Shown here one piece after another: positions 37,005-38,797 of a stretch of 64,000 nucleotides of DNA. Numbering within the stretch: the first letter of the stretch is position 1; every line of letters begins with the position of its first letter. The translations under genes and the position numbers were made by a program. The DNA comes from Candidatus Mediterraneibacter guildfordensis (GTDB lineage: Bacteria; Bacillota; Clostridia; Lachnospirales; Lachnospiraceae), in the NCBI GenBank assembly GCA_019112735.1, contig DXIS01000030.1:35597-99596 (forward strand), in the 5' to 3' direction. Below the pieces are notes generated by a model. The model saw only the letters and a program-made list of their open reading frames with translations. It searched no databases and was not told the DNA's origin.

Positions 37005-37052
37005 TACTAAAATATAGTAGTAAACTATTAAAATAATACTTGAATTTAGTAT
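37005..37052 (+). promoter_or_regulatory. Two candidate operators upstream of the HipA-like cassette
   Basis: TACTAaaataTAGTA (37005-37019) and ATACTtgaatttAGTAT (37036-37052) are related inverted repeats whose centres are 32 bases apart, about three helical turns. They lie in an AT-rich region before the first cassette gene, as expected for cooperative autorepression by the cassette's HTH proteins. Confidence 0.5.
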
Positions 37053-37110: not shown

Positions 37111-37650
37111 ATGGAATTTGCTTTACAGAAAACATTATATGCTCCGGAAGTGAAGAATATTCGGAAAAATCTGAATATGAAGCAGAAAGAGCTGGCTGTA
37201 CTGCTGAATGTTTCCGTTAAGACAGTGGAACACTGGGAAAGCAGCGGGGGCAGTGTATCCGGCGCCGCTGCAGCGTTGCTCTGCATCCTGCGGGAGCGCC
37301 CCTGGCTTCCGGAAGAACTGGAGATCCCGGAAAAGAAGTTTCCGCTGCGCCTCAGATATCTGAACGGGGACCGGCTGTGTACAATCATCGATGTAAATGA
37401 CAGAGAGCAGCGGGTGAAAATTAAAAACTATGTAACGGATCCGCTGTACCGTGCATTCGGGAGGAATGAACATCCTTCGTACAAGGATTATGAAGAATTC
37501 CTGGAGTCGAGATGTTTTCCGCGGACGCGGGACAAGATGAAGATCATACTGGAAGAACTGAACCTTCCGTTCTATGATCCGTTTCTGATCATACAGAAAA
37601 CGGAAGGGAAGATGGCGGAAGATGATTTCCGGATTGAGATTGAGAGGTGA
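37111..37650 (+). CDS. HTH protein with a HipS/HipA-N-like C-terminal part
   Basis: 179 residues. Residues about 8-60 are a Cro/C1-type HTH (VKNIRKNLNMKQKELAVLLNVSVKTVEHWESSG). The rest (about 75-179) reads RLRYLNGDRLCTIIDVND, then EFLESRCFPRTRDKMKIILEELNL and MAEDDFRIEI. This resembles the small N-terminal subdomain of HipA kinases (FFxNLLPEGxxR...), which in HipBST systems is the separate protein HipS. That match is my inference; no HTH-HipS fusion is known to me with certainty. It is followed within 5 bases by the kinase-like gene. Confidence 0.65.
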   Translation: MEFALQKTLYAPEVKNIRKNLNMKQKELAVLLNVSVKTVEHWESSGGSVSGAAAALLCILRERPWLPEELEIPEKKFPLRLRYLNGDRLCTIIDVNDREQRVKIKNYVTDPLYRAFGRNEHPSYKDYEEFLESRCFPRTRDKMKIILEELNLPFYDPFLIIQKTEGKMAEDDFRIEIER

Positions 37651-37655
37651 AGAGG

Positions 37656-38465
37656 ATGGTCAGACTGGAAGAAAATGAGTTGAGAACTGCCGCCCATCAG
37701 TCCTCAAAAGGAAATCAGATGAAATGGGAATCAGACGGCGTATGGTACAAAGCAGACTATACGGGATATGAAGGTCTGGCGGAGTATATGGTTTCCGGAC
37801 TTCTGAAACATTCAAATATGAATGAAGAAGAGTATATCCTGTATCAGACAGAGGAGATTGGTTATAAGAAAGCATTGTACAGGGGATGCCGGAGCGGGAA
37901 CTTTCTACCGGATGGCTGGCAGCTTATTACGCTTGAGAGGCTGTTTCAGAATCTGCACGGGCAGAGTCTGTATATGAGCATTTTCAGAATACAGGGCACA
38001 AAGGAGAGGGCGCGTTTCCTGACAGAGCAGGTAGAACAGATGACAGGTCTTGAAAATTTTGGCGTATATCTCAGCCGTCTGCTGACAATCGACGCGCTGT
38101 TCCTTAATGAAGACAGACACATGCACAATATCGCTGTGCTGCGCGACGGAACCGGCGGGTATCATTATTGTCCGGTTTTTGATAACGGGTGCGCGCTTCT
38201 GTCCGATACTCAGATGGATTATCCGATGGGAGAGGATATAATTGATCTCATCCCGCAGGTCAGATCGAAAACACTGTGCAGTGATTTCATGGAACAGCTG
38301 GAGACAGTGGAAACATTGTATGGGCAGTCATTAAAGTTTTCATACGATGAACATGATATTGAAATATTGATGGAGAAAGAACCATATTATCCGAAAGATA
38401 TAAAGATGCGGGTGCGCGATATCCTGCTTCAGCAGCGGCGCACGTACCGGTATCTGTTTCGGTAA
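37656..38465 (+). CDS. HipA-like kinase lacking the N-terminal subdomain (HipT-like)
   Basis: 269 residues. The kinase core is visible as LTIDALFLNEDRHMHNIAVL (catalytic Asp and metal-binding Asn of the DRHxxN type, about residue 150) and YCPVFDNGCALL (DFG-like Asp, about 175). A HipA N-terminal subdomain is missing; the preceding gene appears to supply a similar segment. The ATG at 37656 is favoured because AGAGG is 9 bases upstream, while the track GTG at 37647 abuts it. Homologues phosphorylate aminoacyl-tRNA synthetases and stop growth. AT-richer than its surroundings. Confidence 0.75.
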   Translation: MVRLEENELRTAAHQSSKGNQMKWESDGVWYKADYTGYEGLAEYMVSGLLKHSNMNEEEYILYQTEEIGYKKALYRGCRSGNFLPDGWQLITLERLFQNLHGQSLYMSIFRIQGTKERARFLTEQVEQMTGLENFGVYLSRLLTIDALFLNEDRHMHNIAVLRDGTGGYHYCPVFDNGCALLSDTQMDYPMGEDIIDLIPQVRSKTLCSDFMEQLETVETLYGQSLKFSYDEHDIEILMEKEPYYPKDIKMRVRDILLQQRRTYRYLFR

Positions 38466-38467
38466 CT

Positions 38468-38487
38468 ATAGATAATATATTATCTAT
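38468..38487. promoter_or_regulatory. Perfect 20-base palindrome covering the start of the HipB-like gene
   Basis: ATAGATAATATATTATCTAT is fully symmetric and its last two bases are the first two of the ATG at 38486. It sits directly after the kinase stop codon. It is a strong candidate operator for one of the HTH proteins and could also hold a -10 element for an internal promoter. No ribosome binding site is seen for the ATG. Confidence 0.7.
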
Positions 38488-38797
38488 GATTGATTTAAGT
38501 ATCTTATCCAAAACACCTAAAGAAATCGATAAACTGATCGCTGCCCGGATCCGTAATATCCGTCGGCGGAGAAAGATTTCACAGAAAAGACTGAGCGAGA
38601 AGTCGGGAGTAAGCCTGGGATCTGTGAAGCGGTTTGAGAGCAGCGGTGAGATTTCCCTGATCTCACTGACCAAGATTGCGATCGCGCTGGATATTGAAAA
38701 TGAACTGGAAGGACTGTTTGAACATGTTCCGTTCCTGTCGATCGAGGAGCTTATTAACGAGGAAGCCGAAAGAGAGAAAAAGTTAAATGCTCTGTGA
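38486..38797 (+). CDS. HTH transcriptional regulator, HipB-like antitoxin
   Basis: 103 residues with an XRE/HipB helix-turn-helix: IRNIRRRRKISQKRLSEKSGVSLGSVKRFESSGEISLISLTKIAIAL. It is the third gene of the HipA-like cassette and probably its DNA-binding antitoxin. The start codon lies in a palindrome and lacks a Shine-Dalgarno sequence, so translation may be leaderless or start later. It converges with the LysR gene, overlapping by 15 bases. Confidence 0.75.
   Translation: MIDLSILSKTPKEIDKLIAARIRNIRRRRKISQKRLSEKSGVSLGSVKRFESSGEISLISLTKIAIALDIENELEGLFEHVPFLSIEELINEEAEREKKLNAL

Follow-up and report, generated by a model that had tools for sequence, protein, structure and literature searches.

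Does the row of three genes at positions 37111-38797 of the DNA analysed here form a single Hip-type toxin-antitoxin cassette, or do its members have separate histories? The locus belongs to Candidatus Mediterraneibacter guildfordensis (Lachnospiraceae; assembly GCA_019112735.1, contig DXIS01000030.1, positions 35,597-99,596, forward strand); the window is this whole stretch of 64,000 nt, and coordinates count from its first letter. A sequence-only reading had proposed a three-gene, HipBST-like cassette that combines a kinase with two potential repressors. All three ORFs are present in this region, namely, ORF1 (37111..37650, plus strand; 179 aa), the kinase gene (37647..38465, plus strand), which, counted from GTG 37647, shares 4 bp with the end of ORF1, and ORF3 (38486..38797, plus strand), which begins 20 bp past the kinase stop in the same direction.

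The second gene is confirmed to encode a Hip kinase core that has intact active-site motifs and lacks N-subdomain 1. The protein consists of 272 aa, with the Gly-rich loop at residues 19-26; because M4 is near-invariant and many relatives start there, ATG 37656 is a likelier start than GTG 37647. The Gly-rich loop (SSKGNQxKW-type), N-E-D-R-H-x-H-N and P-x-F/Y-D-x-G motifs are retained in 47 of the 47 relatives, and the NxDxHxxN and PxFD positions align with those of HipT and HipA. The HipA_C model scores weakly on the window kinase (16.7 bits; cut-off 30.5) and matches 31 of these 47 relatives; a single-sequence PDB search with the kinase found nothing, and the family profile retrieves CtkA. 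The AlphaFold model (pLDDT 92.1, with the loop residues 16-22 as the sole low-confidence stretch) fits the kinase core, and its best Foldseek match is CtkA (E = 1e-8), followed by HipT of EPEC and Legionella and by HipA. Ser19 is invariant among the relatives and, by motif reading, which we used because MAFFT aligned the N-terminal loop unreliably, would be placed opposite Ser150, the autophosphorylated serine of HipA (PMC10627512). In a tree of 43 kinases, the details of which are unsure owing to several long branches, the window family is split from HipA/HipT (support 100/99) and forms its own clade beside HipI/HipL; the HipT rows of this tree are relatives from the same order in the hipB-hipS-hipT arrangement, not EPEC HipT. 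Given that the kinase clade lies outside HipT/HipA, the ORF1-kinase pair is not HipBST.

ORF1 encodes an N-terminal Xre domain (HTH_3 at residues 14-55, 27.7 bits; cut-off 23) followed by a domain at residues ~74-179 (37330..37647, plus strand), and no convincing family was found for residues 75-179 in Pfam, NCBIfam or PADLOC. The identification of this C-terminal domain as HipS-like is supported by transitive homology through HipN, for which a profile of HIRAN-associated HipN proteins from the same order served as the bridge. In HHalign, the HipN profile matches the ORF1 C-domain at 97% (E = 7e-11) over ~50 columns, corresponding to residues ~125-176, the segment in which homology is significant and strongest, and the N-half of HipN matches HipA-N at 94.7% and HipS at 90%. 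Pfam calls Couple_hipA in one HipN protein (E = 1e-7), a HMMER comparison of ORF1 itself with the HipN/HipS-like profile yields E of about 1e-6, and reversed-sequence controls gave zero matches. A direct HHalign comparison of the C-domain with the HipA-N and HipS profiles gave no match, and the confident ones among the 50 Foldseek matches listed for the whole ORF1 model are all HTH proteins, with no HipS or HipA-N, so that the HipS assignment is a transitive one; SaPI2 Stl appears as a weak match in the same search (rank 47, E = 0.33). The secondary structure of the modelled C-domain comprises three strands, three helices and a final strand, an order that, compared by eye, agrees with what we take to be the expectation for N-subdomain 1.

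In EPEC HipS, the inhibitory Trp65, which occurs in many but not all HipS proteins, is wedged by the Gly-rich loop (PMC10627512). Profile alignments through HipN show that the corresponding ORF1 stretch (CFPRTRDK) contains no Trp: the place of Trp65 falls on a variable residue, about T139, and Arg140, within the same stretch, is invariant. If the pose is the same, the contact with the kinase must therefore differ from that of EPEC HipS. Two structural claims of the sequence-only reading have held up, namely, the fusion of an HTH to a segment that is HipS-like at the level of sequence profiles and the absence of the N-terminal subdomain from the kinase; the active site, on the integrity of which it had staked its proposal, is intact in the window kinase and throughout its relatives.

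ORF1 homologues and the kinase are adjacent, with ORF1 first, wherever the sequence reaches, in about 60 loci (L003-L062) that come mostly from Lachnospiraceae, with a few from other Bacillota; among these loci, a few kinase genes are disrupted or truncated at the end of a contig. More distant kinases are accompanied by a HipS-like domain that is fused to a resolvase-type HTH (L098-L107), by a HipS-like neighbour without an HTH (L109, L111, L117, L115) or by a HipS-like neighbour in the kinase-first order (L110, L113, L210, L211). The HTH and the gene order thus vary, and the HipS-like domain together with the kinase emerges as the constant core. In L036 and L051, the HTH is absent, yet both are nested in the Xre group of the tree, so the loss is probably secondary there; autorepression by an ORF1-type protein would not be universal. 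Members of the family occur on plasmids (RefSeq names one plasmid-borne kinase-family member a 'hypothetical protein'), sibling genomes differ in the presence or absence of the pair, and decay scars are seen. No relative was found on viral contigs; relatives occur on five scaffolds from human faeces that are labelled 'Bacteriophage sp.' and carry no annotation, and the two of these that were opened are marked UNVERIFIED, so that phage carriage was not accepted.

Several other combinations of these domains came to light. The window genome carries a second, diverged pair, a 115-aa HipS-like protein without an HTH and an adjoining 250-aa kinase (L115:1308-2407; C18:23807-24906), as well as a 417-aa protein that joins an N-terminus resembling Phd/YefM antitoxins (28.1 bits; cut-off 29.8), hence an antitoxin fold from a different family, to a kinase of the HipA_C type (30.9 bits; cut-off 30.5; L116:1662-2915, window genome C17:73661-74914). 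At L024:4524-6129, the gene after an NxDRHxxN kinase encodes a protein of 271 aa that combines a HipS-like segment with a weak match to DUF2442 and, at the C-terminus, an HTH_17-like segment; the same protein is found at L023:8060-8875 and is another possible HipS fusion. A single chain of 529 aa (L173:592-2181) unites a kinase with a HipS-like segment and ends in a HIRAN-like tail, a layout similar to that of HipL, and its kinase groups with the hipIN kinases in the tree. Tandem genes at L192:1073-1827 encode two HipS-like proteins (127 and 96 aa), and beside a hipIN pair lies the gene for a 282-aa protein (L172:4-852) that couples a HipS-like segment to an HTH-like one at its C-terminus.

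Upstream of ORF1, the window contains two operator-like dyads (neither with an assigned strand), the distal 15-bp TACTAAAATATAGTA (37005..37019) and the proximal TACTTGAATTTAGTA (37037..37051), which are 32 bp apart and identical at 12 of 15 positions (p = 0.01 against dinucleotide shuffles). The proximal copy holds TTGAAT (37040-37045), which, assigned by eye, appears to be a -35-like promoter element. An initial count of exact-arm palindromes upstream of ORF1 gave a weak signal (13 of 46 loci, with 3.6 expected) and was superseded by a paired-dyad test, in which two similar dyads were sought in the 110 bp upstream of ORF1 homologues at 46 loci. This test gave p <= 0.05 in 17 of the 46 loci (Fisher 1e-9), compared to 1 of 46 for control stretches inside the kinase (Fisher 0.998), and the best dyad pair is spaced by 32-33 bp in 28 of 46 upstream regions vs 13 of 229 control stretches; clear twin dyads are absent in some loci. 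Across the 38 loci with good dyad pairs, two residues of the HTH track the half-site: residue 37 (K in the window) follows base 3 (K with C, 63/68; P, A or S with A, 56/80), and residue 41 follows base 2 (H with A, 24/28; R with C, 91/120), these counts being descriptive because the half-sites come from related, phylogenetically non-independent sequences and the pairing was noticed before counting. This co-variation nevertheless ties the ORF1 HTH to the twin dyads better than proximity alone.

The third gene has a different history. The only genomes in which ORF3 adjoins the kinase are that of the window and that of one near-identical strain (L063), whose copy has a frameshift that leaves 69 aa (L063/L242); ORF3 is absent beside the kinase in every other relative read. 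At L028, an ORF3 homologue (88%) lies downstream of the kinase, its start 2.7 kb away, and the gene after it encodes a HipA of 377 aa that has both Couple_hipA and HipA_C. Two sibling genomes are informative for the same chromosomal site: G882 (L240) has the order AKR - hipB (the ORF3 homologue) - 380-aa hipA - LysR, with no ORF1 or kinase, and G875 (L239) has AKR, an ORF1 scar fused to ORF3, and LysR, the kinase being gone. In the window, a stretch of 1.1 kb, occupied by hipA in G882, is missing between ORF3 and LysR, and no Couple_hipA domain was found anywhere in the window genome, which is 90% complete. The pairing of the ORF3 homologue with a full HipA in L240 and L028, with the partner missing from the window, makes ORF3 an orphan hipB; most simply, it would be the relic of a separate canonical hipBA whose hipA was lost. 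The start of ORF3 is spanned by a dyad, TAGATAATATATTATCTA (38469..38486, no strand), which lies outside the kinase cassette; two copies of it precede ORF3 in L063, whereas the window has one copy and lacks 41 bp, so that the remaining copy is apparently the survivor of an operator-like pair that belonged to the former hipBA promoter. The loss of one of the twin dyads at 38469-38486 (L063 about 155-213) is consistent with recombination between the two copies.

The ORF1-kinase pair thus comes and goes independently of ORF3, and the three-gene arrangement would seem to be an accident of locus history. Of what had been claimed for the third gene, its nature as a genuine HTH gene of the hipB type stands, but the comparison with G882 and L063 removes it from the cassette; the claims of a three-gene unit and of two repressors within it do not survive, given that ORF3 sits beside the kinase in just two near-identical genomes and that the hipA which is missing here is still present at the same AKR/LysR site in the sibling.

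We consider it probable that ORF1 and the kinase constitute a bicistronic type II toxin-antitoxin module, in which ORF1 is the antitoxin as well as the autorepressor and the kinase is the toxin. Judging from the dyads and the co-variation, the Xre domain of ORF1 would bind the two dyads, three helical turns apart over the -35 region of its own promoter, and repress that promoter. The HipS-like domain, which would be the equivalent of the missing N-subdomain 1 lid, is predicted by homology to HipS and HipN to dock on the kinase core and keep it inactive. Loss or titration of ORF1 would release the kinase to phosphorylate a target, probably in translation, and growth arrest would be expected to follow. 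The fusion of repressor and lid might allow one protein to link toxin occupancy to repression, and ORF3 would be a leftover rather than a working part. Support for the module comes from the strict order and adjacency of the two genes, the intact motifs, the fold match, the link through HipN, the twin dyads and the comparison of ORF3 at the same site.

The alternative closest to the initial proposal, a three-component, HipBST-like cassette with ORF3 as a second repressor or co-antitoxin beside ORF1 and the kinase, draws on the orientation of ORF3, 20 bp past the kinase stop, and on the 41 bp that its own promoter region has lost in the window, which makes read-through from the kinase possible. 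It is very improbable in the face of the lack of an ORF3 next to the kinase in every other relative that was read, the presence of its homologue with a full hipA and without the pair in G882, the broken ORF3 of the near-identical strain (L063, L242) and the position of the kinase outside the HipT clade. A somewhat better, albeit still low, likelihood attaches to a role other than that of a toxin, namely, a regulatory kinase with its transcription factor, the kinase phosphorylating ORF1 or a cellular target and thereby altering gene expression rather than arresting growth. Conservation of the two-gene module and of its operator-like dyads would fit such a role, and toxicity data were found for no member; conversely, a HipS-like partner next to a Hip kinase core is typical of Hip toxin-antitoxin modules, with which the plasmid occurrence, the variable presence in siblings and the decay scars also agree.

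A third possibility, which is compatible with the proposed mechanism and concerns naming and novelty, is that the module is the hipRG of Gerdes et al. 2021, with the HipS-like domain unrecognised there. The gene order, the sizes and the kinase clade, shared with HipI/HipL, agree (PMC8262856), and SaPI2 Stl is among the weak matches of ORF1 (rank 47), but by its description HipG has no conserved Ser/Thr at the Gly-rich loop, where Ser19 is invariant in the window family; we regard this identity as rather unlikely. Returning to the toxin-antitoxin module, we advance with more hesitation, at nearly even balance, the wider reading that it represents an undescribed Hip family of Bacillota, found for the most part in Lachnospiraceae. 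In such a family, a HipS-type lid would be joined to one of several exchangeable DNA-binding modules (Xre or a resolvase-type HTH) or to none, kinase occupancy could set repression through a two-dyad operator read by residues 37 and 41 of the recognition helix, and a Trp wedge like that of EPEC HipS would not be needed.

If this is correct, the roles of HipB and HipS, which are separate in HipBST, can share one protein, and HipS-type lids may be a general antitoxin module of Bacillota that domain databases have missed. The pattern that connects the operator with the recognition helix would amount to a directly testable specificity code. The locus further appears to be a chromosomal site at which two Hip systems have turned over, and it cautions against taking neighbouring HTH genes for members of a single operon.

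Among the Hip systems listed by Gerdes et al. 2021, which include hipBST, hipRF, hipRG, hipMP, hipL, hipIN and hipJS (PMC8262856), hipBST (EPEC O127:H6; Legionella pneumophila, toxin Lpg2370) is among those closest to the window pair. As in the window pair, a small HipS-like partner lies directly upstream of a kinase that lacks N-subdomain 1, and an HTH repressor is involved. In hipBST, HipS neutralises the kinase, which phosphorylates TrpS. However, hipBST consists of three genes in the order hipB-hipS-hipT, whereas the window has a two-gene unit, with ORF3 orphaned and downstream; HipB and HipS are separate proteins there, and here an HTH is fused to the HipS-like domain; the window kinase falls outside the HipT clade; Trp65 of EPEC HipS is not kept; and the partner is related to HipS and HipA N-subdomain 1 through the HipN profile, the direct comparison being negative. 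The resemblance to HipBST is thus one of logic and not of membership. The canonical hipBA enters the comparison through ORF3, the hipB of such a pair whose hipA is gone from the window, and is unrelated to the kinase cassette. CtkA of Helicobacter pylori, the best structural match of the kinase, is about 14% identical to it.

hipJS likewise joins a short kinase with a HipS-type partner and differs in having the kinase first and no HTH; its order is found in the Bacilli relatives L210 and L211. The nearest described kinases in the tree are those of hipIN, along with HipL. In hipIN, which consists of the HipI kinase and the HipS-like-HIRAN protein HipN, the antitoxin resembles ORF1 in that a homologous HipS-like domain (97% in HHalign) is fused to a putative DNA-binding domain. 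This domain is HIRAN in hipIN, with the antitoxin gene downstream of the kinase, as opposed to Xre in the window, where ORF1 lies upstream, no HIRAN was found in ORF1 and the kinase forms a separate clade. The PADLOC system PDC-M03, on which we found no literature, is the equivalent of hipIN: a HipI-HipN pair is matched by both of its models, A and B (E = 3e-129 and 7e-109). In the window, PDC-M03A gives only a partial match (E = 1e-8). In hipRG, as in the window, an upstream HTH protein with a second domain, HipR, precedes a short kinase, HipG, which has no N-subdomain 1 and belongs to clade XI with HipI/HipL (PMC8262856). The second domain of HipR is described as Stl-like (PMC8262856); that of ORF1 is HipS-like by profile, and SaPI2 Stl is among the weak structural matches of ORF1 (E = 0.33). 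The description of HipG without the conserved Ser/Thr (PMC8262856) differs from the invariant Ser19 on the same descriptive level. An overlap with hipRG, compared by description only, is possible, and the window pair is best placed as a variant among the Hip modules rather than as HipBST.
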